Virus record (IMG/VR): IMGVR_UViG_3300010392_004727
Coordinates: 1-22,817 of that record
Strand: one strand, 5' to 3'
From: a virus
Length of the DNA stretch: 22,817 nucleotides
Numbering within the stretch: position 1 is the stretch's first letter; each line of letters starts with the position of its first letter. The notes under the pieces were generated by a model. The model was not told the DNA's origin and searched no databases. It saw only the letters and a program-made list of their open reading frames with translations. Positions 1,896-22,817 of this stretch are shown in pieces. A program made the translations under genes and the position numbers.

Positions 1896-3872
1896 ATGAC
1901 CACAGACGAAAAGATCTTGATCAAAGCACCTCGCAGCCACAAAGATGGACATTTGTTTTTAGTCAGTGAAAACACAATTGATTGGATCGAGCAATATCAA
2001 CACTTTAAAGGTGTCACCAAAAGCATTGTCGAATTATTAAACCTAATTTCGCTACGAGGCTTCTCTAGCAAAGATGGCTATGTTTCAACAACCGACTTAA
2101 TTGACGCTACCGAAGGTCAACTTACTCGCGCAGCAATTCAACAGCGATTGCGCGCCGCCGTTTCGATCGGTTTATTTACCCAGTCCCCTGTTCGCTTTGA
2201 ACAAGGCCTGGCAGGAAAAACCATGCTACACGGTTTTGTTAACCCAAGTCAGCTTGTGTCTGCGCTTGGTGCAACAAGCTTGATGACCGAGTCTAGTAAA
2301 CAAAACGAAAAACAAAAGCGTTCTAAAGCCCTCGCTCAAACCCAAGTTAACCGTCAGTTATTGAATGAGCATGGTCTAAATATCCCCCCGACGATGAAAG
2401 ATGAATCGGAACAATTTGTCGTTTCACCAACCAATTGGGCGGGGATTATTGACCAAGCTTTAGCGCCGCCACGCACTCGTAAAAGCTATCAGAAATCGAT
2501 GGTTTCGATCTCGGGCAGTCGCGCGGTGATCGAAACACGATCTTCTAAAAACATCATGACCGTTGATGATCTGATGACGCTGTTTGCGCTGTTTACCTTA
2601 ACGGTACAGTACCATGAGCATCACCAAGAAGAATATCAGCTCAACGGTAAGCACGTACCCAACAAAACCCCGCTGTACATCACAGATATTTTGGCATTAC
2701 GTGGCAAAAAAGACAGCGGCCCAGCTCGAGATTCGATCCGCGAAAGTATCGATAGGATCGAGTTTACCGATTTTCAATTGCATGAGCTTACCGGCCGCTG
2801 GATGAGTGAGAACATGCCTGAAGGCTTTAAGAGTGATCGTTTCCGCTTCTTAGCCCGAACCATTACCGCCTCTGAAGAAGCGCCACAGGAGAACGAAGCT
2901 GGCGAGATCCGCATTAAGCCAAACTTGTATATTTTAGTTTGGGAGCCTTCATTTTATGAAGAGCTGCTCACCCGCGATTACTTTTTCTTGTTTCCACCCG
3001 AGATCCTGCGTCAGCATACTTTGGTGTTCCAGCTTTATTCGTTTTTCAGAAGCCGGATGTCACGCCGTTTCACCGATAGCATGCTGCTGAGTGAATTAAA
3101 CCAAAAACTGGCGCGAAATATCGAATGGCGACGTTTTTCAATGGATCTGATCCGCGAGCTAAAGCGTTTGTCTGAAGGTAAAGGCACCGATGAGATGTTC
3201 GTGGTTAACCTTTGGGGTTACCACTTGACGGTTACTTGCATCGAAGAAAAAGGAAAAGTGCTGGATTATCAAGTTGATATCAAGTGTGATGTTGAAGAAG
3301 TACTGCGTTTTTCTCGCGCAAGAATGACCAACGCGGGCAAACGTAACATGGCGCCAACATTACCGAATCCGCTCAGACATGAAATGGTCTCTGCGCAGAA
3401 GCTTGAAGAGTTAGCCGAGATCATTGATGGTGAGTTTGAGCCGATCCAGCGTCGTCCTTCTTCACCAAAAGGCCGTTTAGGCCGCCGAGTGAAGCAGCGC
3501 AAGCATTTGGTTGAGATCAACGCCGATGAGCTGACCATCACGCTATCAAAATATACCTCACCAGAAGCGCTAGAACGCAGTGTAACCGCTTTGTCGGCAA
3601 TGACTGGTCACACGGTCAACTCTATCCGAGAAGAGTGTCAGGAGCTGATAGAGAAGCTTGATTGGCTGAGAGTAGGCGAGCAGGTCATCCCTTACGAGGT
3701 GCTGAGTAAGACGATTGAGCTATTTAATAGCCAAAGTAACGCGAAACACCTCTCTATCGAGCGTTTGATTGGCGGTTTAGCGGTGCGCCGTAAAGTGTGT
3801 AAACAAGTCCTAGATGGCCACATTGATGAAACCGTGATGCGGGTATTAGATGAAGTCGCGGTGGGGATCTGA
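1896..3872 (+). CDS. rctB: RctB, chromosome 2 replication initiator
   Basis: The 658-aa product has the length of Vibrio RctB and follows the V. cholerae protein through most of its length as I remember it (for example QYQHFKGVTKSIVELLNL near the N-terminus, RDSIRESIDRIEFTDFQLHE in the middle and LDEVAVGI at the end). RctB is a Vibrio-specific iteron-type initiator made of winged-helix domains. It binds 12-mers to start replication and 39-/29-mers to inhibit it and to repress its own promoter, and its timing is coupled to chromosome 1 through crtS. The ATG at 1896 gives the conserved N-terminus and is preceded by a weak purine-rich site. The whole ori2 lies immediately upstream on the same strand. 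No truncation or frameshift is seen. Confidence 0.98.
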   Translation: MTTDEKILIKAPRSHKDGHLFLVSENTIDWIEQYQHFKGVTKSIVELLNLISLRGFSSKDGYVSTTDLIDATEGQLTRAAIQQRLRAAVSIGLFTQSPVRFEQGLAGKTMLHGFVNPSQLVSALGATSLMTESSKQNEKQKRSKALAQTQVNRQLLNEHGLNIPPTMKDESEQFVVSPTNWAGIIDQALAPPRTRKSYQKSMVSISGSRAVIETRSSKNIMTVDDLMTLFALFTLTVQYHEHHQEEYQLNGKHVPNKTPLYITDILALRGKKDSGPARDSIRESIDRIEFTDFQLHELTGRWMSENMPEGFKSDRFRFLARTITASEEAPQENEAGEIRIKPNLYILVWEPSFYEELLTRDYFFLFPPEILRQHTLVFQLYSFFRSRMSRRFTDSMLLSELNQKLARNIEWRRFSMDLIRELKRLSEGKGTDEMFVVNLWGYHLTVTCIEEKGKVLDYQVDIKCDVEEVLRFSRARMTNAGKRNMAPTLPNPLRHEMVSAQKLEELAEIIDGEFEPIQRRPSSPKGRLGRRVKQRKHLVEINADELTITLSKYTSPEALERSVTALSAMTGHTVNSIREECQELIEKLDWLRVGEQVIPYEVLSKTIELFNSQSNAKHLSIERLIGGLAVRRKVCKQVLDGHIDETVMRVLDEVAVGI

Positions 3873-9694: not shown

Positions 9695-9922
9695 ATGCGA
9701 AAGCCAAGTAAGGAAATTTTAGCGTCACTTGCCAAAAATGTGAGGCGTTTTCGGCTCGAAAATGACATGTCTCAAGAGTTGCTTGCTGAAAAATGTGGAC
9801 TACATAGAACTTATATAGGTTCAATAGAGCGTGGTGAGAGAAATGCCACTCTAAGTACTCTGGAGGTTCTAGCTGAAACATTTAACGTATCAATTGCCCA
9901 GCTTCTTAACAATAATGAGTAA
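9695..9922 (+). CDS. Restriction-modification controller protein (C protein), XRE-type HTH
   Basis: The 75-aa product is almost entirely one Cro/C1-type helix-turn-helix domain. The core is MSQELLAEKCGLHRTYIGSI at residues 25-44, followed by ERGERNATLSTLEVLAETFN. Length and sequence are typical of the small dimeric C proteins of type II systems. These delay endonuclease expression after entry into a new host, giving the methyltransferase time to protect the DNA. The C-box pair upstream and the endonuclease gene eight bases after its stop support this strongly. The ATG at 9695 has GGGG a few bases upstream. Confidence 0.92.
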   Translation: MRKPSKEILASLAKNVRRFRLENDMSQELLAEKCGLHRTYIGSIERGERNATLSTLEVLAETFNVSIAQLLNNNE

Positions 9923-9930
9923 TTGATAAT

Positions 9931-10977
9931 ATGAATAGTTTGGCTTCAGGCTTAGGAAAGGTTTCAAATATTTCTCGTTCTGATTTAACAATTTATGACC
10001 AAATACAGACAGGAGATACACAATATTGGTTAACAAGCGAAGAGCTTTCCGCAGTTTTAAATGATCGATTAACTGGCGTATCTTTTGAAGGTTTAGCTAT
10101 TAGAACCCGCTCTAAAGTTGCTAAAGAATTAGTGTGTGAGACTCTTGGATATCCAGTGCCGCGCTCTTTTGTAAAGTGCCAGCCACGATTTACAGGTCAA
10201 ATGTTTGATACTTATGTACAAAAATCAAACAACTTGCAAGTTTGGAATGAAGAGTTAGATGTTGAAAGGCGATACGTAATCATCCGAACAGATGAAAATG
10301 ATATTATAACAAAAGTTAAAGTTATTTCAGGTAGTGATTTAGCCGCTTTAGATACTACGGGTACATTGACTCAAAAGTTCCAAGCGCGACTGACACTCTC
10401 AAATCACCAGATGGAGTTAATTTCTCAGTTTGATACTTTAAATGTTCAAAACACACTAGCTTTATCACCTATTGATTTGTCATTTGATAGCCCTGTGTCT
10501 CAGCCAGTGTGTGGTAAGATACTTCCTATTAATGAGTGCTTTAGAAGGCTATCAAGCATTGTAGGTCGCTCGTTTCCAGATGCTGGTCGTATTCAAGAAA
10601 GAAATAGAGGAGCAGCTTTGCATGCTCTAGTTTGCGAAGCTTTAGGATATTCAGACTATCGAGATAACGGACAGTTTCCAGATGTTAAGCATCAGCTACT
10701 TGAAGTTAAACTACAAACTTCTCCAACGATAGATTTAGGGTTGGTCTGTCCTGATAGTAAAGCCCTCTTAGATATCGAACAGGTAGGCTTTCAGCAAATT
10801 AAACATTGTGATGTGAGATACGCAATATTTTATGGTTATATTGATAATGGCTTAGTCCATATCACTAATCTCTACCTTACAACTGGTGAGGATTTCTTTA
10901 GTCGTTTTGAACAGTTTGGAGGCAAAGTTTTGAACAAGAAGATACAAATCCCTTTGCCTCGCAATTTTTTTGACTAA
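9931..10977 (+). CDS. Type II restriction endonuclease, PD-(D/E)xK fold, with an internal duplication
   Basis: The 348-aa product is assigned from its place between a C protein and a DNA methyltransferase and from a catalytic motif near the C-terminus: P250-D251 followed by E258-V-K260. The sequence is internally repeated. LVCETLGY at 67-74 and LVCEALGY at 233-240, each after R-rich helices, are followed at matching distance by FTGQMFDTYVQKSN (87-100) and FPDVKHQLLEVKLQ (249-262), then by a similar strand pattern. In the first copy the acidic catalytic positions appear lost and only the lysine (K98) remains, so the N-terminal half is probably a degenerate DNA-binding or regulatory copy. The ribosome site is weak and the start is 8 bp after the controller stop, so translation may be coupled. 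The recognition sequence cannot be predicted. Confidence 0.85.
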   Translation: MNSLASGLGKVSNISRSDLTIYDQIQTGDTQYWLTSEELSAVLNDRLTGVSFEGLAIRTRSKVAKELVCETLGYPVPRSFVKCQPRFTGQMFDTYVQKSNNLQVWNEELDVERRYVIIRTDENDIITKVKVISGSDLAALDTTGTLTQKFQARLTLSNHQMELISQFDTLNVQNTLALSPIDLSFDSPVSQPVCGKILPINECFRRLSSIVGRSFPDAGRIQERNRGAALHALVCEALGYSDYRDNGQFPDVKHQLLEVKLQTSPTIDLGLVCPDSKALLDIEQVGFQQIKHCDVRYAIFYGYIDNGLVHITNLYLTTGEDFFSRFEQFGGKVLNKKIQIPLPRNFFD

Positions 10978-10981
10978 TTAA

Positions 10982-12670
10982 TTAGTCTTTCGGCTGTGGG
11001 AGGTCAAATGCTTCCCACACAAGATCGTTCAAGACTTTTTCACTCTCAGTTCTTTTATGTATATTGCTCTCTGTGAAGATTGATTTGGCTAATTCAATCA
11101 TTTTTAGAGATATTCTTGATTTTGGATCAGGTAATGGGAATTGTTCAACGTATTGAGATATAAAACGTCTTTTGTTCGAATACAGCTTGTTATTGAACTT
11201 TGTATCGTAAAATAACTCAATAAACTTCGAGTTCGCTACAGCTAGAATTAACCAAAGAATGTCAGTTTCATCTTTTTGGAAGTCATTAACCATCCAGTAA
11301 CAATCACCGTTAACTATAGATTGTTTTTCATCCAACCAAAAAGTAGGTTCTTCACAAATGTCTCTAAAGACAATCTTGTCTTCTAACCATAATTGGGGAT
11401 TCTGAGGAACCCAGATTTCAAACCAATTTCGATTAGCTTTTATTACGTACTTACGACCTTCAAGCTGCTCTCTATGCTGCTCCAAGTAAGATTTACTTAC
11501 TGGATATTTTTCAATATCAATAGCTTTTTTCTTGCCGTTTACAGTCTCATGAGTATAGAGGATCTGTTTAGTTTCTTTATCTGATTGCTTAAATCTTCCT
11601 GCTACATGATGGGTAATTAATGGCTTAATAAGTTCAGGTTCTAACCCTGTCTCTTCAACCCATGACTCTTTGATAAAAACATTATCAGCGGTTGTTTTAA
11701 CTCCCACTCGAATCTTACCTACTTCACCAAATGTAGCCCATGTTTTGCTATCAACATCTGCCAACCACTTTTGAGATTTAAGATCTTTGATTCTCCAAAT
11801 GTCTTTTGGAGATGAGTCATAATCCAACAATCCAGACTTTATAATGTAAGACTTACCATTTGAGCACTTAACAACGCCACGATGTGAAATTGCATCTACA
11901 GGTGTTTCTGAGAAGTCTGTAGCTTCTTCACTCGTTTCATAGATAGAGCAGAATTCTGTAGAGGTTTCAGCATTTTTGTTTTTAAGTGAGAACAATAGAA
12001 CGGCAGGTAATACAGCAGCTTCAAATAGTTTTGTGTCTCCAAAATCCCATATGTTGTATATTTTATACAAGTCGTACAGAGATTGTCTGAGTGCTCCAGT
12101 CCCCTTAGTTGTTAGGAATCTATTCGATACAATAACACCTGCTACTCCATCTTCAGATAGACATTTACTCATACCAATTAGGAATGCTTGATAAATATCA
12201 ACTCGACCTTTTAAACCGAAGTTTTTAGATAAAAACTGAGATTGTTCTGCCCCCAAAACCTGAGTTCTTACATATGGGGGGTTTGCAATAATTACATCAA
12301 ACTTTGGTAGATTGTGCTTACAGAGTTCGGAGTTATTATTAATACAATAGTCTAAAAAGTCACCATGTATTAAGTTCATCTTAACATTTGGGAAATATTT
12401 AGAGATTCTTTTTTTACTAAGTTCGATGGAATCTATATTTATATCAAAACCAATAACTTCAACATGAACAGTTGATTCAAGTGAGCCCAGTAAGCTTAGA
12501 ATTAACTCACCATCACCAATAGCAGGATCTGCTACAACAATACGCTCTTTATCTTTCAACTTTGTAAGTATCTTTTCGCTAACAAATTTACTTAATTTTG
12601 TAGGCGTATAATGAGCACCTTCACTTTTTCTACATGATACGTGTTGATATCTATCTTCAATTACTTCCAA
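10982..12670 (-). CDS. Eco57I/TaqI-like N6-adenine DNA methyltransferase
   Basis: The 562-aa product converges on the endonuclease with only four bases between stop codons. It has the AdoMet site DPAIGDGE at residues 49-56, acidic loop GFDIN at 74-78, GDF at 103-105 and the catalytic NPPY at 130-133, the order of N6-adenine methyltransferases. Residues after about 330 resemble a TaqI-type target recognition domain (PELIKPLITHHVAGRF, then many aromatic residues). It should protect host DNA from the partner endonuclease. The only full-length start is TTG at 12670-12668. An ATG at 12696 begins a 12-codon frame that stops at 12661 and would continue into the gene if the A5 tract at 12677-12673 held six A. 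The gene is AT-rich compared with the flanking chromosome. Confidence 0.9.
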   Translation of the reverse strand: MEVIEDRYQHVSCRKSEGAHYTPTKLSKFVSEKILTKLKDKERIVVADPAIGDGELILSLLGSLESTVHVEVIGFDINIDSIELSKKRISKYFPNVKMNLIHGDFLDYCINNNSELCKHNLPKFDVIIANPPYVRTQVLGAEQSQFLSKNFGLKGRVDIYQAFLIGMSKCLSEDGVAGVIVSNRFLTTKGTGALRQSLYDLYKIYNIWDFGDTKLFEAAVLPAVLLFSLKNKNAETSTEFCSIYETSEEATDFSETPVDAISHRGVVKCSNGKSYIIKSGLLDYDSSPKDIWRIKDLKSQKWLADVDSKTWATFGEVGKIRVGVKTTADNVFIKESWVEETGLEPELIKPLITHHVAGRFKQSDKETKQILYTHETVNGKKKAIDIEKYPVSKSYLEQHREQLEGRKYVIKANRNWFEIWVPQNPQLWLEDKIVFRDICEEPTFWLDEKQSIVNGDCYWMVNDFQKDETDILWLILAVANSKFIELFYDTKFNNKLYSNKRRFISQYVEQFPLPDPKSRISLKMIELAKSIFTESNIHKRTESEKVLNDLVWEAFDLPQPKD

Positions 12671-12696
12671 GGTTTTTCTCTACTTAAAGTCGTCAT
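12661..12696 (-). other. Possible leader peptide or frameshifted N-terminus of the methyltransferase
   Basis: ATG at 12696-12694 opens the short frame MTTLSREKPWK, which ends at TAA 12663-12661 and overlaps the TTG start of the methyltransferase in another frame. Adding one A to the A5 tract would give MTTLSREKTLEVIEDRYQ, fused to the methyltransferase without interruption. It may be a coupling leader, a natural slippage site, a mutation or a sequencing error. Confidence 0.4.
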
Positions 12697-12732
12697 TTTA
12701 TATTTATCCTATCACAAACTTCAAGAGACTGC

Positions 12733-12742
12733 ACCACTACAT
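12733..12742. repeat. Left target-site duplication of the ISAs1 element
   Basis: ACCACTACAT is repeated exactly at 13986-13995, directly outside the other end of the element. A 10-bp duplication is in the range known for ISAs1-family elements. Confidence 0.85.
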
Positions 12743-13985
12743 TAGGGCAAGATCATGAACGTTTTTTATCCAATATTAGACCAAGGTTGACTTGATAAGG
12801 CCACCATGATCTCATACCCCTCTTTCGAGGAGTGGCCATGAATATCGATACCATTAAAGAGCATTTCAGTATTATCCGTGACGAACGGCAAAGCGCAAAA
12901 GTGGACTATCCACTGTTCGATATCCTGTTTGGTTCTATCTGCGCAGTGATAGCCGGAGGCCAAGGCTGGACAGACATTCGCGAGTATGTTCTTGGTCACC
13001 ATGAGTGGTTTCTTAAGCACAACCTGTTTGAAAATGGTGTTCCTGTAGATGACACCTTTGCTCGCCTGATCGCAAGCATTGATCCTGCAGAGTTTCGAGA
13101 CTGCTTTTTAGCCTGGATGAAGGCGGTGCATAAGCTAACTTCTGGTGAAGTAATTGCCATTGATGGCAAGACATTACGTGGCTCCTATGACAGAGACGAC
13201 AGACAAAGTGCCATCCATATGGTTAGTGCATACGCCAGCGCCAACCAACTGGTATTGGGTCAACTCAAAACCGAGAACAAGAGCAATGAAATTACCGCGA
13301 TACCTGCGCTAATTAAGATGCTCGATTTGCGAGGCGCCATAGTGACGATTGATGCAATGGCCTGCCAGACTAAGATTGCCGGGGTCATCACCAGCAAGGG
13401 TGGAGACTACTTATTAGCAGTTAAAGGCAATCAGGGTAAGTTAGCCGCCGCTGTACAGGCGGCTTTTGCCCCGTACCGCCGAGCCCCGGTTGATGAAGCT
13501 ACATGTCAAATCGAGAAGCAGAAAGGTCGTGTTCAAGCACGCACCTGCCATGTATTGAATGCGAGTGAGCTGGAAGGGGACTTCTCAGCCTGGAGTAGTC
13601 TAACCAGCATCGTGATGGTCGAAAATTACCGGGCAACAAAAGGTAAAGAGCCAGAGCTGGAGTACCGTTACTACATCAGTTCAGCTGAGTTAACTCCAGA
13701 GCAGGCCGGTAATGCTATCCGCGCTCACTGGGGCATTGAGTCAATGCACTGGATTTTGGATGTGAGTATGCGGGAAGATGCTTGTCAGATTTACCGGGAA
13801 AATGCGGCTGAAAACCTGGCAGGGTTAAGGCACATGTCGCTGAACATGCTCAGAGCTGAACCCACAAAGATCAGCGTGCCAATGAAGCAGAAACGCTGCA
13901 TGATGAATCCCGCCTTCTTGGAACAAGTTCTTCTGGCCGGATTTGCATCAATGGCTAAATCCTAACCATTCATGCGGATGCCCTG
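12743..13985. mobile_element. ISAs1-family insertion sequence, complete, 1243 bp
   Basis: The left end reads TAGGGCANNNNCATGAA inward and the right end, reverse-complemented, reads CAGGGCANNNNCATGAA, giving imperfect terminal inverted repeats. Outside them the 10-bp direct repeat ACCACTACAT is present on both sides. One intact transposase gene fills the element. The perfect target duplication and intact gene indicate a fairly recent insertion. It landed about 45 bp upstream of the methyltransferase leader, so it may alter or separate that gene's promoter. Confidence 0.88.
12838..13965 (+). CDS. ISAs1-family DDE transposase
   Basis: The 375-aa product has the family layout. The N-terminal segment is DIREYVLGHHEWFLKHNLF. 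The first catalytic aspartate is D109 in VIAIDGKTLRGSYD, the second is D172 in VTIDAMACQT, and the glutamate is E301 in HWGIESMHWILDV, with DCF, VKGNQG and YRYYISS between. It catalyses cut-and-paste or replicative movement of the element. I start it at ATG 12838 because GAGGAG stands eight bases upstream; the in-frame GTG at 12832 adds only two residues. It is also related to the E. coli H-repeat proteins. No frameshift or stop interrupts it, so it is probably active. Confidence 0.95.
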   Translation: MNIDTIKEHFSIIRDERQSAKVDYPLFDILFGSICAVIAGGQGWTDIREYVLGHHEWFLKHNLFENGVPVDDTFARLIASIDPAEFRDCFLAWMKAVHKLTSGEVIAIDGKTLRGSYDRDDRQSAIHMVSAYASANQLVLGQLKTENKSNEITAIPALIKMLDLRGAIVTIDAMACQTKIAGVITSKGGDYLLAVKGNQGKLAAAVQAAFAPYRRAPVDEATCQIEKQKGRVQARTCHVLNASELEGDFSAWSSLTSIVMVENYRATKGKEPELEYRYYISSAELTPEQAGNAIRAHWGIESMHWILDVSMREDACQIYRENAAENLAGLRHMSLNMLRAEPTKISVPMKQKRCMMNPAFLEQVLLAGFASMAKS

Positions 13986-13995
13986 ACCACTACAT
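13986..13995. repeat. Right target-site duplication of the ISAs1 element
   Basis: ACCACTACAT is identical to 12733-12742 and directly abuts the right terminal repeat of the element. Confidence 0.85.
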
Positions 13996-14115
13996 AGGCT
14001 AGATTTGTAGTAACGATTACAGCATGGCTACAATCACAGTTACGTGGAGTATTGTCCCAATCCTAAGCTCAGCGCTCGCTCTAAACAACTTGCTTTGCCA
14101 TACTGGAGGTTATTC

Positions 14116-14307
14116 ATGAATCGCTAATTTAGGAAAGTCGCTGGCAAATTTCTGTCCAACACCGAGTTAGCTGAGAGGGCGTTCAGAATTCTGAACGCCC
14201 TCGATGAAATGACCATAAGTGATCACCAGCTCTGTGTGATTAAGCTTCACCATCCTATAGTTAGTAACTCCACCCCATATCACCAACATCTAGGTTTATT
14301 TCGGTAG
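14116..14307 (+). pseudogene. Possible decayed small gene with an early stop
   Basis: GGAGG stands five bases before ATG 14116, and the frame reads M-N-R-stop, then continues open for about 60 codons: FRKVAGKFLSNTELAERAFR and then ILNALDEMTISDHQLCVIKL, ending at 14307 inside the antisense of the tape measure gene. Composition is protein-like with a helical pattern, and the ribosome site is good, but the TAA at codon 4 breaks it. It may be the relic of a phage or chromosomal gene at the prophage edge. The parent family is not recognised. Confidence 0.3.
14175..14202. repeat. Perfect 28-bp palindrome
   Basis: GAGGGCGTTCAGAA is followed directly by its own reverse complement, centred on the EcoRI-like GAATTC. 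It lies 59 bp downstream of the tape measure stop on the minus strand. A hairpin this long and GC-rich could end phage late transcription although there is no T run, or it could be a protein binding site at the phage boundary. Confidence 0.7.
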
Positions 14308-16861
14308 CTTTATTGCTTTGAGCTTTTTCAACTGTGACTGGATTATCTGACCTAATCCTTAGGTCAATTTCCGACTTACTTTGTACTACCTGGTTTCTTA
14401 TGGGTTGATAGTCTTTAACTAGGCCAGCTTGACCGAGTGGTTGATAGTCTTGGTTTGAGTTTTGTTTGTAGTCGGTGGATGTGTCCCAGGTAACCTGTTC
14501 AGGTGAATCTATCGAGCGTTGTACTTTTTCCTTGGTTGTGATCCCCAGTTCAATATTGCGGTTCTGTAGTGCCTTCATTTTTTTGGCCTGATCCATTACC
14601 TTTTCTTCCCACTTGACCTGCATATCAATTACATATGGGTTATATGCCTGCATGGTCGGCGGTTCATTATTTTTATAAATAGTAGAGTAATACTCCTGCG
14701 TGGTGAGTTTTTTGGTTTCACTGGTACTAATGCCCAGTTCTAGATTGCGGTTTTTCATCCCTTTCATGAGATTAGCCTGGCGCCGCACTTCATCCGCTCC
14801 GGTCGTTTGAGTGTTTAGGAGTAGATTTTGAGTTAGCTGCTCAGTGTTTTGATGCGTCTCATTGTAGTTTTTCTCAGAGTTGAGGACTTTGCTCTGGTTT
14901 AATACTTCATTGGTGGTTACGCCAAGCTCTACATTGTGGTTCTGAAGATCTTTCATTAGTTGCGCTTGGGCTTGAACTTTTTCCACGCCGATTACCTGAG
15001 CATTGACTATTTGATTTTGCTCCTTTAGCTCGCTGCTGTGGTAAGTGGCAGAATAATGTTGCTCGGTTACGAACTTTTGAGTCTGGTTGGCTACCTCGTT
15101 GGTGGTGATCCCTACTTCAACATTTTGGTTTTTTACTTGCTTCATTAGTTTGGCTTGAGCTTTCAGCGAATCGCTGTCACTTTCCAATGTGTTGAGAGTG
15201 TAGGGGGTATATGCTTGATACGCTGTGGGTTTAGTACTTTGGTGGGGTTGCTCCGTGTAGGTAAGGTGTTCATTGGTGGTTAGGGTCGTCACGACCTCTT
15301 TATTTTCTAATCCTTTTGTTGCATCAGACAGCGCTTGGGCTCTACCTTCGTCTTCTCCCCATAGGCCATCCCAGAATGATTTAACTTTGTCCATAACTGC
15401 GGTGATACCGCCAAAGTAATCAATTAGAAGCCCGGCTCCGGCAATGACGGCACCGATGGCGATAATGAATGGCCCTAAAGGATTCGCTAAAGCGATGATG
15501 TTTATCCCGATCAGGGCGAGTTTTACGCCCGCCAATACACCTAGAATACTTGCCATATTGTTGCTGAGAAACAAAACACCACGGCCAAGCGTTCGGAAAG
15601 CACTGAAGGTGTTTTTGACGATTTCACGAAGTTCAGCAATGGTGTCATTACGCCAATCCATGTTTTTCATGTTTTGGGCTAAATCTTCCATGATAAAGGA
15701 AAGTTCCGCCATGATAGGGGTAAGAGCACTGATTTTTAAGGAATCAATGATTGCTCTCATTTTCCCTAATGCGTCACTGAACGCTTGCGCGTTTTTCGTT
15801 GCTTCGGGCTCTACTGGGCCACCGGTATCCTTGAGTAGCTGCTTAGCTTGTTTGTACCCATTAACTCCGCCCTTGAGTACCTTGAGCATTTTCTCACTGT
15901 CGCCGCCAAAAAACTCGTCAGCCATAAAGTTTTGCTTGGCCGTGTCCGTTTCTTTGGCGATTTCACGCAGCAGGATTTGATAAGCTTCGCTCGCGTCTTT
16001 GGCTTTCATCAAATCTTGATAAGCTTTCCGGTTGCCGGTGTCTTCAAAGTAGTCATTCATCGCCCCTGACTGTAGGGTTTTCATTTCTCCCCAGCGTAAA
16101 GCCATCTCTTTGATAGCAGCGTCCATGTCTTCGGCTTCTGCGCCTGCTTGCGTTGCCTGCAAGCGCATTGCTTGGAGTTCTGCCACTGGCATCTGAATGT
16201 CATCGGCTGCACGTTGGAGGGCATCGAGCTCTGAGGCGGTATTATTGATGACATAACCAAAACCTGCCATTGTTCCGACGATCCCTGTGGTTGCGATCGC
16301 CCCCGTTTTTACGCCTTCGACGGTCGGCATTTTGAGTGCTTTGTTTATCCCACGAGGCACCTTCATCCATTTCTGCATTCCGGCGTATTTCTTCTGCAGG
16401 CGGGTGATTTCTTTACCATGGGTTTGATAGCTCTGGTTCAGGCGCTCATACTCAGAATCTAATTTGTAGACTTTGACGCCCGTTTTTGTCAGTGCTTTTC
16501 TAATATCGACCATACGCTTTTTGTAGTCGTTTTGACTTAGCGATAGCTTTTCAACTTTTACGCGTTGCTTTTCGAGCTTGGCGGTTAAGGCTGCACTGGG
16601 GCGCTGTAGTGCGTTGCTTTTTTGTTTCAGCTCATCGAGTTTTTCCACTTCAGCTTTAAGAGCCAAATTGTTTTGTTGCTTGACGGCCTTGAGCTGGTTG
16701 TAGGTGTCTATCATCCCCATTGCGGCGGAGTTTTCAGCCTGGGCTTTCTCTACTTTTTTTATTTCATTTCCGTATTTATTGGTCTCTTTGCTCATTTTTT
16801 TGAGCGGAGCGGTGGCGTTGTCGATCACCCCCATGACAACGGAAAGAAGCATTTTAGACAT
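14261..16861 (-). CDS. Phage tail tape measure protein with internal repeats
   Basis: The 866-aa product is the last recognisable gene of the tail cluster, close to the roughly 815 aa of P2 T. Residues 30-165 are strongly coiled coil; about 458-483 is a hydrophobic glycine/alanine-rich segment (NPLGPFIIAIGAVIAGAGLL) typical of tape measures, which set tail length and enter the membrane during DNA delivery. The C-terminal third is unusual: four copies of a QAxLMKxxxNxNxExGITTxE motif recur about every 63 residues (DNA 14520-15180). The minus-strand leader has AAGGG before the ATG at 16861, directly after a terminator-like hairpin. Downstream there is no U, X or D tail gene, so the usual P2 order stops here. 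Confidence 0.9.
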   Translation of the reverse strand: MSKMLLSVVMGVIDNATAPLKKMSKETNKYGNEIKKVEKAQAENSAAMGMIDTYNQLKAVKQQNNLALKAEVEKLDELKQKSNALQRPSAALTAKLEKQRVKVEKLSLSQNDYKKRMVDIRKALTKTGVKVYKLDSEYERLNQSYQTHGKEITRLQKKYAGMQKWMKVPRGINKALKMPTVEGVKTGAIATTGIVGTMAGFGYVINNTASELDALQRAADDIQMPVAELQAMRLQATQAGAEAEDMDAAIKEMALRWGEMKTLQSGAMNDYFEDTGNRKAYQDLMKAKDASEAYQILLREIAKETDTAKQNFMADEFFGGDSEKMLKVLKGGVNGYKQAKQLLKDTGGPVEPEATKNAQAFSDALGKMRAIIDSLKISALTPIMAELSFIMEDLAQNMKNMDWRNDTIAELREIVKNTFSAFRTLGRGVLFLSNNMASILGVLAGVKLALIGINIIALANPLGPFIIAIGAVIAGAGLLIDYFGGITAVMDKVKSFWDGLWGEDEGRAQALSDATKGLENKEVVTTLTTNEHLTYTEQPHQSTKPTAYQAYTPYTLNTLESDSDSLKAQAKLMKQVKNQNVEVGITTNEVANQTQKFVTEQHYSATYHSSELKEQNQIVNAQVIGVEKVQAQAQLMKDLQNHNVELGVTTNEVLNQSKVLNSEKNYNETHQNTEQLTQNLLLNTQTTGADEVRRQANLMKGMKNRNLELGISTSETKKLTTQEYYSTIYKNNEPPTMQAYNPYVIDMQVKWEEKVMDQAKKMKALQNRNIELGITTKEKVQRSIDSPEQVTWDTSTDYKQNSNQDYQPLGQAGLVKDYQPIRNQVVQSKSEIDLRIRSDNPVTVEKAQSNKATEINLDVGDMGWSY
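14520..15180 (-). repeat. Four tandem degenerate repeats in the tape measure gene
   Basis: Units lie near 15108-15170, 14915-14975, 14723-14785 and 14533-14597, each about 190 bp apart. They encode QAKLMKQVKNQNVEVGITTN, QAQLMKDLQNHNVELGVTTN, QANLMKGMKNRNLELGISTS and QAKKMKALQNRNIELGITTK. The linkers share tyrosine- and asparagine-rich stretches (EQHYSATYHSS, EKNYNETHQNT, QEYYSTIYKNN). Confidence 0.85.
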
Positions 16862-16874
16862 GTTAATCCCTTAT

Positions 16875-16901
16875 AAAAAAAGGAGAGCTATTCGCTCTCC
16901 T
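16875..16901 (-). terminator. Terminator-like hairpin just before the tape measure gene
   Basis: On the minus strand AGGAGAGC and GCTCTCCT form a perfect 8-bp stem around a 5-nt loop, followed by seven T. It overlaps the stop codon of the frameshifted tail chaperone (16888-16890) and ends 13 bases before the tape measure start codon. It should stop or weaken transcription between these two late genes. Confidence 0.75.
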
Positions 16902-17336
16902 GTGGACATCGTTCTATGGCTAGGTCTCGAAAGTGAAGAAGCTCATCAAAAGTGAGTTTATCGATTTCACTGGGTTGCCAACGGAACGCCATTGCTAAGT
17001 CCGCGTAGAGTGGTTCTACATGCGGAATATTTTCAATTAGCGTTCCGTATTCACGAAAAAAGTTGCTAGCGTGGTCAATAGTGGAGCCCAGTTAGCCGGA
17101 TCTAGATTTAGCATATCTCGGTCATCAAGCTCTGATATTCTCGGGATCACAATTTTTCCTGCGTCAAAATCGGCTTGGCAAATGTCGTTAAGGTTCACAC
17201 CGCGCAAATGGCCGGAATGTGGTTTCTGAAGTTCAACTTCTTTGATCGCCACTGTTTTACCTTTCACTTCTTTTTCAATTGCTACCGCCAAGACCGCGAT
17301 TTTGGTTGTGCCTTTGTCTTTAATTGGGTTGGTCAT
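16888..17336 (-). CDS. Tail assembly chaperone, -1 frameshift fusion (E+E'-like)
   Basis: If ribosomes slip back one base at the heptamer at 17061-17055, the 94 codons before it continue into 55 further residues ending AIERCPQESE before TAG at 16890-16888, a 149-aa fusion. The extension contains MAFRWQPSEIDKLTFDELLH, the pattern of the P2 GpE' family (a short W-x-P segment followed by an acidic helix). The two forms probably coat the tape measure during tail assembly, the role known for E/E+E' in P2 and G/GT in lambda. The extension has no start of its own with a good ribosome site, although an internal ATG exists. Confidence 0.75.
17037..17336 (-). CDS. Phage tail assembly protein (E/gp41-like), unshifted form
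   Basis: The 99-aa product MTNPIKDKGTTKIAVLAVAI... has the charged beta-rich N-terminus, the L(K)xPxxxxLRGVNLND-like middle and the LTTLATFF end of the P2/Mu tail assembly chaperone family. The start has AGGAG six bases upstream and overlaps the end of the preceding terminase-like gene by 17 bp. It lies directly before the tape measure, the fixed place for this gene in contractile-tailed phages. It ends normally at TAA 17039-17037 when no frameshift occurs. Confidence 0.85.
   Translation of the reverse strand: MTNPIKDKGTTKIAVLAVAIEKEVKGKTVAIKEVELQKPHSGHLRGVNLNDICQADFDAGKIVIPRISELDDRDMLNLDPANWAPLLTTLATFFVNTER
17055..17061 (-). promoter_or_regulatory. -1 ribosomal frameshift heptamer T TTT TTC
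   Basis: On the minus strand the zero-frame codons read ACT TTT TTC, giving the X XXY YYZ heptamer T TTT TTC, five codons before the zero-frame stop. P2 uses the closely related T TTT TTG at the same place in gene E. The -1 frame downstream is open for 55 codons and encodes a GpE'-like domain. Confidence 0.8.
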
Positions 17337-18018
17337 AGCCTAACTCCTGCCTTAAGTCTTTTAGTTTGATTTTGCGGCCACCACCATCAGGGTCTAGTTT
17401 CATTACTAGTTCAAAGAGGTCATGGGCCTTTTCTCGTTCGCCTGCTTCAAAGTGCCAATCACCGAGCAAGCGGAACATTTTCACTTTGAGTGGGGCATTG
17501 GTTGCTAAGTCACCAGAACGCAGGGCTTTAACTGCATCGGTTAGATATTCATGTTTAAACTCTTTTTTCCCTTTATGGGCGTCTAGAGAGTATTTGAATA
17601 CATAGCCACAGAATGCGGTTTGGCCATTCATCTTCCAGTTTTCTGGTGCCTCTAGCCCCCCATTGACGGCGTCGCGAAAGTCATCGTGAATAGCTTCTAG
17701 TTTGTTGAGGTCTACATGCCATAGAAACCACCACCAAATAACATCGAGATTTCCATAGCTGCCCTTGTGAGTAACGAGAAGTTTTTGTACCAGTGGACGG
17801 TACTTTTCGATCAACGCTTCTTTAAATGGCGCTTTTTCTTTAGTGCCTGCAAGAGTTCGCAGATAAGATAAATCCTGCTTTAAAATCAGTTGCGTCTCTT
17901 CCCATGGCTTGTCGGCAAAGGTTTGGCGAGTTGTTGTACTCGCCGTTGTTATTTCTGCTGCGACAACCGGCTGTAAGTTTTGCTGTTGAGCTTTGCGTTT
18001 CATCAGGATAGATAGCAT
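17320..18018 (-). CDS. P2 M-like terminase endonuclease (small) subunit
   Basis: The 232-aa product matches the P2 M pattern: a basic, Gln/Thr-rich start; LKQDLSYLRTLAGTKEKAPF, like the L-D-x-x-x-L-K stretch of M; KYRPLVQKLLVTHKGSYGNL with DVIWWWFLW after it (Y-x-P-x-V, KG, D-x-I); and a C-terminal helix-turn-helix repeat, LLGDWHFEAGEREKAHDLFE, ending in a basic tail. M pairs with the large subunit P to cut cos sites and package DNA. Its place is unexpected: in P2 it lies between capsid gene N and head completion gene L, whereas here it follows the tail tube and precedes the tail chaperone. The ATG at 18018 has GGAGT eight bases upstream; an ATG five codons later is possible. Confidence 0.75.
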   Translation of the reverse strand: MLSILMKRKAQQQNLQPVVAAEITTASTTTRQTFADKPWEETQLILKQDLSYLRTLAGTKEKAPFKEALIEKYRPLVQKLLVTHKGSYGNLDVIWWWFLWHVDLNKLEAIHDDFRDAVNGGLEAPENWKMNGQTAFCGYVFKYSLDAHKGKKEFKHEYLTDAVKALRSGDLATNAPLKVKMFRLLGDWHFEAGEREKAHDLFELVMKLDPDGGGRKIKLKDLRQELGYDQPN

Positions 18019-18028
18019 GCATTACTCC

Positions 18029-18394
18029 TTATTGGGTAATCATCTCGATGCCATTGAATAGCACTTCAAGTTGACCGTCCTTGGTTGACAATGTAATTGG
18101 ATCCACTGTCCACGCTTCTTTTAGGGTGTATGCTTTGCCACTGTTAGTTTCGATGGTAATGGTCTCATCAACAAAAGCTTTAATTGCTTCTTCATCGGTA
18201 TCTTTCGCGTGAATGATAGTGCATTTGATTGATGGTGCCTCTTCGTAGGACTCTGAGTAACCAAGCGGGCCATCGTCTCCCATCACTGCTTCGCGTTTGA
18301 GGTTACCAAAACCAATTTCTGCTCCTTCCTTGATAGGAAGGCGACCTAATGAACCGGCATTGATCACCGCTCGGCTAGTAATTTTTGTTGCCAT
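18029..18394 (-). CDS. Phage tail tube protein (Mu M-like)
   Basis: The 121-aa product is the size of Mu tail tube protein M, much shorter than P2 FII (about 172 aa). It has the same order: a short start, an insert with GRLPIKEGAEIGFGNLKREA, then ITIETNSGKAYTLKEAWTVD and the C-terminal LEVLFNGIEMI, a beta-rich fold. It should form the hexameric rings of the inner tube inside the contractile sheath. It directly follows the sheath gene with a 3-bp gap and lies before the M-like gene. Confidence 0.85.
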   Translation of the reverse strand: MATKITSRAVINAGSLGRLPIKEGAEIGFGNLKREAVMGDDGPLGYSESYEEAPSIKCTIIHAKDTDEEAIKAFVDETITIETNSGKAYTLKEAWTVDPITLSTKDGQLEVLFNGIEMITQ

Positions 18395-18397
18395 AAT

Positions 18398-19531
18398 TTA
18401 CTTCCTAAATTGAATTTTGCCTGCAACGATAATCAAACCGTTCACGAACTGCGGTGAGTCTTGATAGTTGACGCGTTGTTTATTGGTCTGATCAAGTTCA
18501 ACCACGAGTGATTTTTTATAACCGTCGAAGTCCTGCACGATCCCTCGGTACTCCAAATCCCGGTAGAGTGAAAGCAACTGACTTTTGAACATGGTTGGAG
18601 TCACAATTGGTTGGCCCTTGGCGAAATTGGTTCCATCTTTCGCCACTTTGTGACGTGGATAGATACTCAAGATTTTGGAGCGTTGCTTTTGGCGGAAGAA
18701 CATCGCTGTGGCTGGCGTCATGACGTCTAAATAACTGTTGTCGGCAATACCTGCACCGTTTTCTGTGTATGCAGTAATTGGTCGCTCAATCAGTACTTCT
18801 TTGGCGGAGCTGACCGTGTAGGTGCTTAGACCTTCATATAAAAATAGGTTGCGCTCGGCCCAGTCCCACTCACGAGCGGCAAGGGTATATACGCCGTTTA
18901 GTTTGAGGGTTTGTAGTGGTCGGCAAGGGTCAATCGCCAATGATGGGGCGATTTGGCCTACCCAGGCACCAATAGCAGCCGCATCCGATAGTGGTTTGTT
19001 TTCAGTATCGCCAAAACTATTGATTGGTAGAAAGTTAATCAAAGCGCAGTTGCTTGTCTCGCCGAATGTGATCAGTTCTGCGTGGGTACCTTTCTTTGGA
19101 ATGTACGCGATTCCGGGGATCTGGTTTAGCGCGTTGTAGCGCTCTTCCAGAAACAGCCCGAGCTCACGGATGGTGGTTTCATCGTTGAGTGAGCACATAA
19201 TGTGGTGATATTGGGTGTCACCTAACGCTGCCAGTGCCGCCGCAATATCGTCATCCGCTACGCTGATCGCGTAAATGGGCATGGTATCGTCTTGCTTACG
19301 GAAATAGGTGATCATCTCCACGATGTCAGATGCACCGAAGCTCTCTGCGGCAATAGTTTCATCCATGCAAAGAGTAACAGTGTTAGCGCCAACTTTGGCC
19401 CCTTCTACAGCGTTACCTATTGCTAGAATGCATTGCAGATCTTCGGCACTGTTCGCTAGACTGTTGTCAATTTCGATGTATACACCAGGCACTCGGGCGG
19501 TGGCTGGCACTTCATTAAAGCCAATTCCCAT
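18398..19531 (-). CDS. Phage contractile tail sheath protein
   Basis: The 377-aa product begins MGIGFNEVPATARVPGVYIE, the typical sheath opening (P-x-x-R-V-P-G-V-Y), and ends with the sheath C-terminal domain FVNGLIIVAGKIQF that links subunits. The protein is in the size range of P2 FI and Mu L, but the gene order (DUF2635 protein, sheath, short tube) is Mu-like. It polymerises around the tube and contracts at infection. The start codon overlaps the stop of the upstream gene as TAATG. Confidence 0.93.
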   Translation of the reverse strand: MGIGFNEVPATARVPGVYIEIDNSLANSAEDLQCILAIGNAVEGAKVGANTVTLCMDETIAAESFGASDIVEMITYFRKQDDTMPIYAISVADDDIAAALAALGDTQYHHIMCSLNDETTIRELGLFLEERYNALNQIPGIAYIPKKGTHAELITFGETSNCALINFLPINSFGDTENKPLSDAAAIGAWVGQIAPSLAIDPCRPLQTLKLNGVYTLAAREWDWAERNLFLYEGLSTYTVSSAKEVLIERPITAYTENGAGIADNSYLDVMTPATAMFFRQKQRSKILSIYPRHKVAKDGTNFAKGQPIVTPTMFKSQLLSLYRDLEYRGIVQDFDGYKKSLVVELDQTNKQRVNYQDSPQFVNGLIIVAGKIQFRK

Positions 19532-19728
19532 TATTTGGTCTCCTTATTGGCGGTGGCTTTAGCGTTGACTTTTACCTGAACGACATCTTCGTCGTGCAAA
19601 CGTCGTAGCCAGTAAGCGGAGCGAGGCTTCTCCTCGCCGATGTTTTTTAATGGCTCTCGGGTAAGCGGGTCTTTCACTTTTACCCCTGCCTTGGGTTTGA
19701 GTTTGAATGTTGCTTCGGGTGTTTTCAT
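19531..19728 (-). CDS. DUF2635-like small tail protein, 65 aa
   Basis: The product has the motif KPKAGVKVKDPLTREPLKNI followed by GEEKPRSAYWLRRLHDEDVV, which is the pattern of DUF2635, a small basic protein encoded just before the sheath gene in Mu-like phages. Its function is unknown. The start overlaps the stop of the upstream gene and its own stop overlaps the sheath start, so translation is tightly coupled. Confidence 0.85.
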   Translation of the reverse strand: MKTPEATFKLKPKAGVKVKDPLTREPLKNIGEEKPRSAYWLRRLHDEDVVQVKVNAKATANKETK

Positions 19729-20324
19729 TACGCTGCATCCTGTAGTGCAAAGTGTTCGGCGGCCATCGCCATCAGTTCCCGTTCGAGAGCGGGCGTCCAG
19801 CCAATAAAAGTACGTTTGGGCATTTGGTAATTGCGTTTAGTGAGGTGCCCGCCCTCCCATCGTCCAACTCGTTTACCGTCTTTCTTGTAGTTGGCGTTGT
19901 AAAAGCCATTCACCCGAGTCGAAAAGGAGATTTGTGAACCTTCGTTATGCTCGCGGCCAATGTTCCCGGCTACGCCTTTTAGCCCAACCGCAAAGCTTTC
20001 TTCCGACACTTGGGTGCGCAGTGCTCGGCTAAAACCAAACAGCATGCTTTTATTGTTGACGGTGTTTAATGCGACTAATTGACGATCGTGTTTTGCGCCA
20101 TGCTTCCCCCTGATACCTCGTGAGAAAACGGTCGCTTTCCTCGCCGTTCTCGATTGATAAGGATTATTATCAATATCTCTTTGGTTACGGACTTGCTGTC
20201 TAAAAAATTGACGCGCTCGGTTTGCCATTCGCTTGTTTAGCTCAAACTTTTCAGCCGCCGTCATAACTAAGCTTTCTACTATTTGCGTGAGTTGCTCTGG
20301 GGTTTGCAGCGTCAGTTCTGACAT
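19728..20324 (-). CDS. Virion morphogenesis / tail completion protein (P2 S-like)
   Basis: The 198-aa product is strongly basic in the middle (RTARKATVFSRGIRGKHGAK) and ends with MPKRTFIGWTPALERELMAM, the conserved P-x-R-x-F-(L/I)-G ending of the virion morphogenesis family (P2 S, Mu G). Such proteins act at the head-tail joint or tail end. It is longer than P2 S (about 150 aa) because of an insert between about residues 100 and 150. It overlaps the upstream gene by 13 bp, and TAATG joins it to the next. Confidence 0.85.
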   Translation of the reverse strand: MSELTLQTPEQLTQIVESLVMTAAEKFELNKRMANRARQFFRQQVRNQRDIDNNPYQSRTARKATVFSRGIRGKHGAKHDRQLVALNTVNNKSMLFGFSRALRTQVSEESFAVGLKGVAGNIGREHNEGSQISFSTRVNGFYNANYKKDGKRVGRWEGGHLTKRNYQMPKRTFIGWTPALERELMAMAAEHFALQDAA

Positions 20325-20785
20325 GGTAGATCCTCTTTGTGTCCTACCACGTACACTAGGTCATTGAGTTCAATCGGTTCCGCGGCTGGTTCAAATTCAC
20401 TGGTACACTCGTAGCGAGTGCCGTCTTGCATCCAGTTGCCCAGTTTGTTTTCCTGCAATGAATACTCTTCTTGTAGGTCTATTTTTATCTTGATGTCGCA
20501 CTTGCCATCATCGAGCACTTCGGTTGCAAATGTCGGGAATGGGAGCCCTTTCCCCAACCTGTCAGGATCATTTCTGTTTAGCCAATTTACTAGGTGCATG
20601 AAAAGGATATGCGGCTGGATTGCTGCTGATTGGATGTAAACAATTGCAGTATATTCCAGCGTGTAGCCGTCAACGTATGGCCCTTGTCCGCAAAACACTG
20701 CACCATCTTCGGCCCAGGCCGAGAAGTTTTGCGCATCCGTTACATGACTTTTAAATAGCTCGGTAATACTTTGTAGTGATTTCAT
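20312..20785 (-). CDS. Phage tail completion protein (P2 R-like)
   Basis: The 157-aa product starts MKSLQSITELFKSHVTDAQN and matches P2 R in size, place after L and pattern: an opening helix, FPTFATEVLDDGKCDIKIKI in the middle and an acidic region, VYVVGHKEDLP, near the end. It helps finish the tail end that joins the head. I choose the ATG at 20785, which overlaps the L stop as TAATG and follows GAGGTGG, instead of the upstream start at 20803. Confidence 0.85.
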   Translation of the reverse strand: MKSLQSITELFKSHVTDAQNFSAWAEDGAVFCGQGPYVDGYTLEYTAIVYIQSAAIQPHILFMHLVNWLNRNDPDRLGKGLPFPTFATEVLDDGKCDIKIKIDLQEEYSLQENKLGNWMQDGTRYECTSEFEPAAEPIELNDLVYVVGHKEDLPCQN

Positions 20786-21234
20786 TAAACCACCTCGAAA
20801 CAATAGGTTTCTTCGCCATGAACTAACATGTCTACCGCTTGGCGATACTGCACTTCACAGTGCTGTTTTTTGTCTGTGAGTGCTTGTTGTCGTTCTGCTG
20901 CTTCAGCTGTTGTATCGCAACTGATCTGAATGCCGATCAATTCACTTGCAGTTAGCGAAAACACGGCTTGTTTGTAGAGCGTCTCAGCTGCTTCATCATC
21001 TTCAAAAAGCGCGAGCGACAATTGCTTCAAACTAGCAAATAGTTTTATGGTGCCCTCAAGCTCTTTGTGTACTTTGATGCGTGACACTTTGGCTTGTTGA
21101 AGAATGCCTGCCTCTGTCTCATTGCTTAAGAAATTAAACAGAGACTGGAACTCTGATATTTTCATTGCTGGGTACTTGCTTGTTGCAGGCAGCTCCGACT
21201 CAAATACATCTCTTTTGTCACCAACAAACTGCAT
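20785..21234 (-). CDS. Head completion protein (P2 L-like)
   Basis: The 149-aa product begins MQFVGDKRDVFESELPATSK and is mostly helical, with the ISEFQSLFNFLSNETEAGIL pattern and the A-E-x-(R/K)-x-A-L-x-x-x helix seen near the end of P2 L, which completes the DNA-filled head before tail attachment. P2 L is a little longer (about 169 aa). GGGATGAAG lies upstream of the ATG at 21234. Upstream, the gap to the capsid gene holds a long inverted repeat where gene M would usually lie. Confidence 0.85.
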   Translation of the reverse strand: MQFVGDKRDVFESELPATSKYPAMKISEFQSLFNFLSNETEAGILQQAKVSRIKVHKELEGTIKLFASLKQLSLALFEDDEAAETLYKQAVFSLTASELIGIQISCDTTAEAAERQQALTDKKQHCEVQYRQAVDMLVHGEETYCFEVV

Positions 21235-21262
21235 AGCTTCATCCCAATGTCATGAATTAGGG

Positions 21263-21338
21263 AATGCGGGCAGACAAACGCTGAATACTCGTTAGCCAGA
21301 AAATAAGGCCAATAAGTTAGAGCGTTAGAGCCCGCATT
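21263..21338. repeat. Long imperfect inverted repeat in the N-L gap
   Basis: AATGCGGGCAGACAAACGCT (21263-21282) pairs with AGCGTTAGAGCCCGCATT (21321-21338) over 9 + 6 bp, interrupted by a small internal loop, around a 38-nt loop. On the minus strand it follows the capsid gene, with no T run after it. It may be a processing or stability element in late mRNA, a scar, or the fold of a lost cassette; the arms carry AACGCT/AGCGTT, loosely like integron attC arms but without the attC consensus ends. Confidence 0.65.
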
Positions 21339-21365
21339 GAGGGGGTGTTTATTTAAGTGGTGGCG

Positions 21366-22403
21366 TTATACCCAAGCACCGTCAATCCAAATTTTCACGT
21401 TTTTGAACTCAACTGCCGCCGCTTTACCAACTTCTTCGATAACGTAAGCCATATTCATTGACTCAAAGTTTTCAATTTGGTCTTTTTCGTCGTTTTTCTT
21501 GCCTGCGGAGCGACGAATTGAACCTTCTTGAATATAGATGGATAAGTTGTCGTAACTGGTGACCATGATGCCTGTAGATGGGAAGCCTGGTACTTTCACA
21601 GCAGGCAGACCACCATAAGTGCCGATGACTTGGAGCTCTTGAATTTTGCCTTTTTCGCTTGGCGTGTTGCCATGTGCTTCATAGAACTTGGCTTTGTCGT
21701 AAGCAAGCAGATCGGAGCCAATAATTGCCACTAGGTTTGAGTCATTTTCACAAGCATCATGCAGTAGGTTTTTCGTATTAAGAACGGCTAGATCTAGGTT
21801 AATGAAATCACCACCTTCACCGATGCGAATTTCACCTGCGGCTTTTTGACCTGTTGTAATTAAACGGTCGGCGTTGTGATCGCGCATGGCTTGGAACCAG
21901 CCTTTATTCACGTCTTCACCGTTCGGATTCTCGGTTGCATCGGTAGTGGCAGCGACTTTTTCGCCATACCACCCGATAGTGATTTTGTTGGCGTCAATTT
22001 GTTCACGATTGGTCTTGCTTATGATGGCACTAAAGTTTTTATGATGTGCCCATGCGTCCAGTTTGGCGTAGCGAAGAGCTGTATCGAAATTGGTTTGCTC
22101 GCACATGTACGGCATAGCACCCATGCTTGAGTAGTCTTTCGGTTTACGCTTGCCATCACCGGAAGTGTCTGTTCGGCTGGCAATCATGCCTGTGACGCCA
22201 AGGCCAATAGATTCACCTTTCTGATTTTTTACTGAGATGACATTAATTTTGTTGAGGAACCAATTACTTTCACGGATAGCGGCAATGATGCGTTGGGTTC
22301 CGTTTGGACTCACGTTGAACTTCTCTGTCGCGTCGTCAACATCGTTTTGTTTTGCTACTGCTTTTAAGTATGCATTAAGCTTTACTTTGGTATGTTTTTG
22401 CAT
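21366..22403 (-). CDS. Phage major capsid protein (P2 N-like)
   Basis: The 345-aa product is the size of P2 N (357 aa) and follows its pattern. The opening is YLKAVAKQNDVDDATEKFNV, followed by SNWFLNKINVISVKNQKGES and GLGVTGMIASRTDTSGDGKR, the middle is KLDAWAHHKNFSAI, and the end is VEFKNVKIWIDGAWV. It folds as the HK97-type shell protein and normally needs gene O for scaffolding. The start codon at 22403 has a weak AATTAGG site. The full length is present with no stop, so the head cluster looks functional here. Confidence 0.93.
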   Translation of the reverse strand: MQKHTKVKLNAYLKAVAKQNDVDDATEKFNVSPNGTQRIIAAIRESNWFLNKINVISVKNQKGESIGLGVTGMIASRTDTSGDGKRKPKDYSSMGAMPYMCEQTNFDTALRYAKLDAWAHHKNFSAIISKTNREQIDANKITIGWYGEKVAATTDATENPNGEDVNKGWFQAMRDHNADRLITTGQKAAGEIRIGEGGDFINLDLAVLNTKNLLHDACENDSNLVAIIGSDLLAYDKAKFYEAHGNTPSEKGKIQELQVIGTYGGLPAVKVPGFPSTGIMVTSYDNLSIYIQEGSIRRSAGKKNDEKDQIENFESMNMAYVIEEVGKAAAVEFKNVKIWIDGAWV

Positions 22404-22456: not shown

Positions 22457-22817
22457 CTATAGGTACGGTTCTTCTTGGTCGCCTTCACCTGCTAGCTGAC
22501 GCTCATCTTCATCGGTTAGCTTGCTTAGCTTTTCTAGTTGGCCACTGAGTTCACTGAACTGCGTTGACAGGGTTTCTACTTGACCTTTTAGTTCGGTGAC
22601 TTCTTTGTTGCCTTCGGCTTCCGGCTCATTTTTATCGCCGTCTTTTTTTTCTTGAGTAGATAGGCTTGTAACGAGTTGGCCTAATTTGCTGTTAAGTTCT
22701 TTGTTCTGCTCAATGCTTTGCTTAAGCAGCTCTTCGGTTTCTTTGCTCATTTCGTCTTCTTCCTGTTGTTGTGAGAGCTGCTCTGTGTGGCCTTCGCCTT
22801 TGAGCCAGCGCTTGAAT
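22457..22817 (-). CDS. Capsid scaffolding protein (P2 O-like), C-terminal part
   Basis: The 120 codons ending at 22457 are open to the window edge, reading FKRWLKGEGHTEQLSQQQEE, then an internal Met at 22750 that is not the true start. The region is a charged coiled coil (QNKELNSKLGQLVTSLSTQE and VTELKGQVETLSTQFSELSG) with an acidic tail. This fits the C-terminal scaffolding domain of gene O, which also has an N-terminal protease domain (outside the window) that cleaves N, L and O. It lies directly upstream of the capsid gene, the fixed P2 order. Confidence is limited by the missing N-terminus. Confidence 0.75.
   Translation of the reverse strand, partial: FKRWLKGEGHTEQLSQQQEEDEMSKETEELLKQSIEQNKELNSKLGQLVTSLSTQEKKDGDKNEPEAEGNKEVTELKGQVETLSTQFSELSGQLEKLSKLTDEDERQLAGEGDQEEPYL

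Follow-up and report, generated by a model that had tools for sequence, protein, structure and literature searches.

The M gene of P2-type phages encodes the small terminase subunit, and the capsid gene order Q-P-O-N-M-L, in which it lies between N and L, is common to HP1-type and many P2-type phages (PMC2771037). In the DNA analysed here, an M-like gene is found among tail genes, raising the questions of whether it is a functional terminase gene and how it came to lie there. The window, i.e. the whole stretch analysed, is IMG/VR record IMGVR_UViG_3300010392_004727 at its full length (positions 1 to 22,817; 22,817 nt). Its right end is mainly minus-strand coding, the order from right to left being O (cut by the window end), N, L, R, S, gp38-like, sheath, tube, M, chaperone and tape measure (Table 1). 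As the original prediction had it, M is absent from its usual site, N and L being separated by 131 non-coding nt, and is found between the tail tube gene upstream and the tail assembly chaperone gene downstream, both identified from Pfam and PHROG profiles. This places M 3.3 kb downstream of N rather than directly after it.

Table 1. Features of the late gene region in the window.
Feature	Position	Strand	Basis
O (scaffold), cut by window end	22457..22816	-	profile match; intact copy in contig L003 = PF05929
N (major capsid protein, P2 type)	21366..22403	-	PF05125, E 1.8e-116
Non-coding N-L gap, usual M site; conserved hairpin at ~21254-21349	21235..21365	-	fold z -4.5, covariation
L (head completion)	20785..21234	-	PF05926, phrog_71
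R (tail terminator)	20312..20803	-	PF06891
S (tail completion)	19728..20324	-	PF05069
gp38-like protein (DUF2635)	19531..19728	-	Pfam
Tail sheath, Mu type	18398..19531	-	39% to Mu gpL, residues 103-375
Tail tube, Mu type, 121 aa	18029..18394	-	PF10618
M, small terminase subunit (TerS), 232 aa, in tail cluster	17320..18018	-	PF05944, phrog_74, fold match
Tail assembly chaperone (TAC), E/gp41 type, 99 aa	17037..17336	-	PF10109
E'-like chaperone extension, -1 frame after TTTTTT run	16889..17065	-	sequence reading; programmed frameshift inferred
Intrinsic terminator-like hairpin, end of late gene run, before TMP	16881..16901	-	same place in relatives
Tape measure protein (TMP), 866 aa	14261..16861	-	phrog_8125, E 4.8e-63

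The record also takes in the chromosome 2 origin region of the Vibrio host adjoining the prophage, as indicated by rctB, the chromosome 2 replication initiator (1896-3872; RctB_central, 706 bits), and a gene with a ParA helix-turn-helix domain (3-338). Between these host genes and the prophage end (9695-13965) lie genes for a helix-turn-helix regulator, an Eco57I/TaqI-like methylase and a DDE transposase (DDE_Tnp_1 with its associated domain), along with an ORF without a Pfam match that is possibly a restriction enzyme.

Profile searches placed the M ORF, which has an ATG start, in the predicted P2 M family, with matches to PF05944 (Phage_term_smal; E 1.3e-11, 45.1 bits against a cut-off of 29.4, residues 45-166) and to phrog_74, 'terminase small subunit' (E 3.3e-32, residues 12-230). 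An AlphaFold model made from a 30-row alignment (pLDDT 84.5) is all-helical, with C-terminal helices that are TPR-like. The sole significant viral fold match of this model in BFVD is a 'terminase endonuclease subunit' (E 7.2e-8, TM-score 0.69), and a PDB search returned only generic TPR proteins and no solved family member. M had been described as a terminase endonuclease subunit and packaging nuclease, of which the packaging terminase part holds and the nuclease part does not, as no nuclease fold or motif was found in the all-helical model and the RNase H-like nuclease domain (PF17289) sits in gpP. M is the small terminase subunit, and 'packaging nuclease' is a historical label only. A second M gene was found neither in the window nor in the complete relative PQ189388.1 by search with PF05944. 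As M is only ~25% identical to classic M proteins, i.e. those of N-M-L phages, its function is assigned by homology together with selection: dN/dS between close pairs is 0.05-0.17, slightly higher than for tube, N and P, and M is clearly under purifying selection. Three of the related loci (L045, L051 and L052) encode a longer M of ~310 aa with an N-terminal extension of ~80 residues that is coiled-coil-like (alanine, glutamate and lysine rich).

The remainder of the packaging module lies beyond the right end of the window, where the original prediction had suggested looking for the large subunit, and was found in a near-identical copy of the locus on the IMG/VR contig L003, which extends further right. 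In this contig gpP (TerL) carries Terminase_6N, Terminase_6C (RNase H-like) and Terminase_5 domains and gpQ is a portal protein (Phage_portal), with both genes divergent from O as in P2, and the large subunit is therefore in its normal place. Adjoining the portal gene of L003, at 225-833, is a gene for a ToxN-like toxin of a type III toxin-antitoxin system (PF13958).

Comparison with known phages points to two sources for the late genes. The head module of P2 and the Peduoviridae has the same M family (PF05944), homologous O, N, L, R and S genes, Q and P divergent from O, and ~100 nt with a strong hairpin before L, but the loci described here differ from P2 in having M after the tail tube rather than between N and L, in the low identity of M, and in tail type. 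The HP1/K139 group shares the operon order in which L, R and S are directly followed by sheath, tube and later tape measure; however, M is located between N and L in that group, and its sheath and tube are assigned to different Pfam families (DUF2586, PF10772). The tail module of Mu (gp38, L sheath, M tube, gp41 chaperone and gp42 tape measure) has the same families in the same order, with the likeness of the window sheath to Mu gpL being in the C-terminal part. In Mu there are 9 nt and no gene between tube and gp41, and in the Mu-like Vibrio phage martha 12B12 tube and chaperone are likewise adjacent, so that in the tail-M loci a P2-type terS occupies this Mu-type junction. Lysis genes are found in the tube-to-tape-measure interval of HP1, K139, phiO18P and phi3, indicating that this stretch takes up genes elsewhere too. 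Pseudoalteromonas phages ACA1 and ACA2 similarly have a P2-type head with a different tail, with the small terminase gene reported downstream of the capsid gene, as in P2 (PMC10612066).

Gene order was then surveyed as the original prediction had suggested. Across 228 Vibrio genomes, PF05944 matched 59 places in 52 genomes, of which 37 were classic, with N directly before M (all 98 bits or more), and 22 had the tube before M and the chaperone after it (58 bits or less). No mixed arrangement occurred among the 59 places, and both types were present in one genome, Vibrio sp. RE88. A tail-M profile retrieved 78 IMG/VR loci and, with E values of about 1e-84 or better, 29 places in 27 of 330 Vibrionaceae genomes. 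Matches outside this family were few: 395 genomes of the order added two, G378 and the divergent G396, and 369 genomes from the class added, apart from RE88, one weak match (L161), where N is followed by M and the locus is therefore not of the tail-M type. In the phage collection, the close relatives were two Vibrio cyclitrophicus phages; Vibrio phages 1F53_PE003 (PQ189388) and 10N.237.312.G08_PE003 (PQ189295) belong to the same lineage and have the same order, with M 64% identical to that of the window (tblastn), and the complete PQ189388.1 (32,461 bases) has a single M. Their depositors' notes already label the gene VPM_BPP2, while the CDS products are given only as 'hypothetical proteins'. 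In total, approximately 116 locus records, several of which duplicate the window or PQ189388.1, show tube-M-chaperone without exception wherever the contig reaches, and the long loci show Q'-P'-O-N-L-R-S-gp38-sheath-tube-M-TAC-TMP. This fixed order, in records that form one clade, bears out the suggestion of an undescribed lineage layout; the gene family is already known, and no description of the tube-M-chaperone layout was found in the open-licence papers searched.

The genome of PQ189388.1 has several further features. Its Mu-type tail module is split, with baseplate and fibre genes upstream of Q/P (11141-18342), while the stretch from sheath to tape measure follows the head genes (22155-29576) and adjoins the prophage end. 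A full-length 5S rRNA-like gene is present at 10679-10794 (89.8 bits to RF00001) and is only 86-88% identical to the chromosomal copies in four Vibrio genomes, suggesting a diverged copy rather than recent host DNA. Matches to C4 antisense RNA and isrK, above the Rfam gathering score, were found near the right end of the phage (31185-31407).

The relationship between tail-M and classic loci was assessed with quick maximum-likelihood trees of M, P and N, unrooted, in which 31 tail-M rows were set against 18 to 29 classic ones from the P2 and HP1/K139 groups, all N-M-L. In each tree a single branch separated the tail-M rows from the classic rows (99, 100 and 99% SH-aLRT for M, P and N, respectively), and the locus L149 was the first tail-M branch in all three. 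N-M-L was the order in P2, HP1, K139, phiO18P, PHL101, Dobby, KS14, LPM4, Smp131, ST437 and Pseudomonas phage phi3. The simplest history would be one relocation of M, in the common ancestor of the tail-M phages, described as a move from the N-L site into the tail because N-M-L is the order in all other groups examined, with the direction taken from parsimony as the trees are unrooted and long branches meet. It is very probable, on the combined evidence, that M is the only functional TerS of a lineage with a P2-type head and a Mu-type tail, that it moved ancestrally to the junction of tube and chaperone, and that it is expressed from the late transcript.

Among other histories, the one that survives best, although it is unlikely, is loss of the resident M and acquisition of one from another phage, inserted at the tail junction. 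At ~25%, the identity of tail-M to classic M is somewhat lower than that of P, Q, O and N (31-39%), and at this sequence distance replacement and move look alike, but the resident gene R shows the same degree of divergence (26%). Pairwise distances of M within the lineage correlate best with those of Q (0.84) and L (0.82). Values of 0.71-0.77 were obtained for S, P, sheath, N, R and O, and the two flanking genes, tube (0.65) and chaperone (0.64), gave the lowest, these being compared as plain values without a significance test on the differences. This tracking of Q and L, like the deepest position of L149 in the M, P and N trees alike, shows later co-inheritance and is silent on the first event. 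The reverse polarity, with tube-M ancestral and N-M-L derived, would be compatible with the unrooted trees, in which P and N each show three main branches with the tail-M loci as one of them, but appears improbable given that the P2 group, the HP1/K139 group and the distant L161 all have N then M and that in the Mu-type tail module itself tube and chaperone adjoin with no intervening gene.

Less probable again is a tail protein that evolved from M and no longer has a terminase role, as might be imagined for a divergent ORF within a tail operon whose C-terminal half resembles TPR repeats, a general binding fold. Against this, no other TerS candidate was found by profile in the complete phage PQ189388.1, classic M proteins align with tail-M over the same length with the C-terminal helices included, and the distances of M follow those of portal and L more closely than those of tube and chaperone. 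Recent local recombination, as raised in the original prediction, or an assembly error in this one prophage can be dismissed despite the transposase and restriction-modification genes that border the prophage on its left, since the same order recurs in the isolate, phage and metagenome records, with M identities of 42-68%, and these form one clade in three trees.

With an ancestral move of M as the preferred reading, the layout around the gene bears on how it would be expressed. In the window, 10 nt separate the tube stop from the M start and GGAG immediately follows the stop codon; in most loci the distance is 9-11 nt with GGAG in the same place. The 3' end of M overlaps the chaperone start by 17 nt in the window and usually by 14-17 nt, overlaps being kept in 26 loci. 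Both the T-run (TTTTTT) and the downstream -1 frame after the chaperone are conserved in relatives, and this frame reads like P2 E', suggestive of a programmed frameshift from the chaperone into E'. A terminator-like hairpin, also conserved in relatives, overlaps the end of E' or closely follows it, before the tape measure gene. TGT-N12-ACA is the P2-type late activator site. Its frequency is 2.3 per kb in the P-O gap versus 0.08 in the N-L gap and 0.01-0.45 elsewhere, though with 27 of 96 loci having the motif the scan is weak evidence. No recognised late promoter was found between N and L in the TGT-N12-ACA scan, and a sigma-70 promoter scan of the region was uninformative, giving fewer sites than shuffles. 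From O to the chaperone the genes form one co-directional, tightly packed run closed by the conserved terminator, to which the premise that packaging and tail genes are separate modules is poorly suited. Given this packing and the lack of a recognised N-L late promoter, M appears to have moved within a single late operon; a single late transcript would extend from O to E', on which M would have shifted from third to ninth gene.

The vacated N-L site itself folds far better in the window than its shuffles. In 26 diverse loci, 87% of cells in the hairpin are paired, with changes on both sides in 13 of 16 pairs and a covariation score of 0.41 versus 0.04-0.13 for slid partners. A covariance model of the hairpin (R1) matches the window at 63 bits, the window being in its training set, and the Rfam search produced nothing in the window beyond a match at chance level, with no match to these hairpins in other loci. 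Classic phages, among them P2 and K139, have a hairpin of different appearance between M and L. Run on classic loci with such M-L hairpins, from P2, K139 and Vibrio prophages, R1 found no significant match (the best was HP1, E 1.1), so that homology of the N-L hairpin and the classic M-L hairpin is unsupported by sequence and structure. The N-L hairpin is a possible new structured RNA, and one guess is that it serves in processing, stabilization or attenuation where the capsid gene borders its low-copy neighbours. A regulatory meaning for the layout is conceivable but doubtful: the hairpin might separate N from the downstream genes including M, with TerS made late and at the level of tail proteins and packaging tied to completed tail-protein synthesis, whereas classic M lies upstream of the pre-L hairpin, alongside the highly expressed capsid gene. 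If true, this would place a new structured RNA element at the boundary between the capsid gene and L in P2-type phages.

The lineage, of Vibrionaceae phages, has its head and packaging module (Q, P, O, N and L) from the P2 type and its tail module (gp38, sheath, tube, chaperone and tape measure) from the Mu type, and the proposed course of events is that in the lineage ancestor M left its place between N and L for exactly the junction of tube and chaperone. M would be coupled to its neighbouring genes and remain on the same late transcript as the head genes, now near the 3' end, and from what is known of its family its product would recognize the packaging site and load gpP, with its ATPase and nuclease domains. 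A clade found mainly in Vibrionaceae departs in a fixed way from Q-P-O-N-M-L, with a packaging gene inside the tail module of another phage type, and the layout constitutes a natural test of how far terminase subunits need co-location or co-expression with the capsid. It also exposes the conserved RNA structure at the vacated N-L site, and provides a clean marker, in gene order, for this large and little-described family of phages with a P2-type head and a Mu-type tail, of which the phage collection searched yielded just two records.
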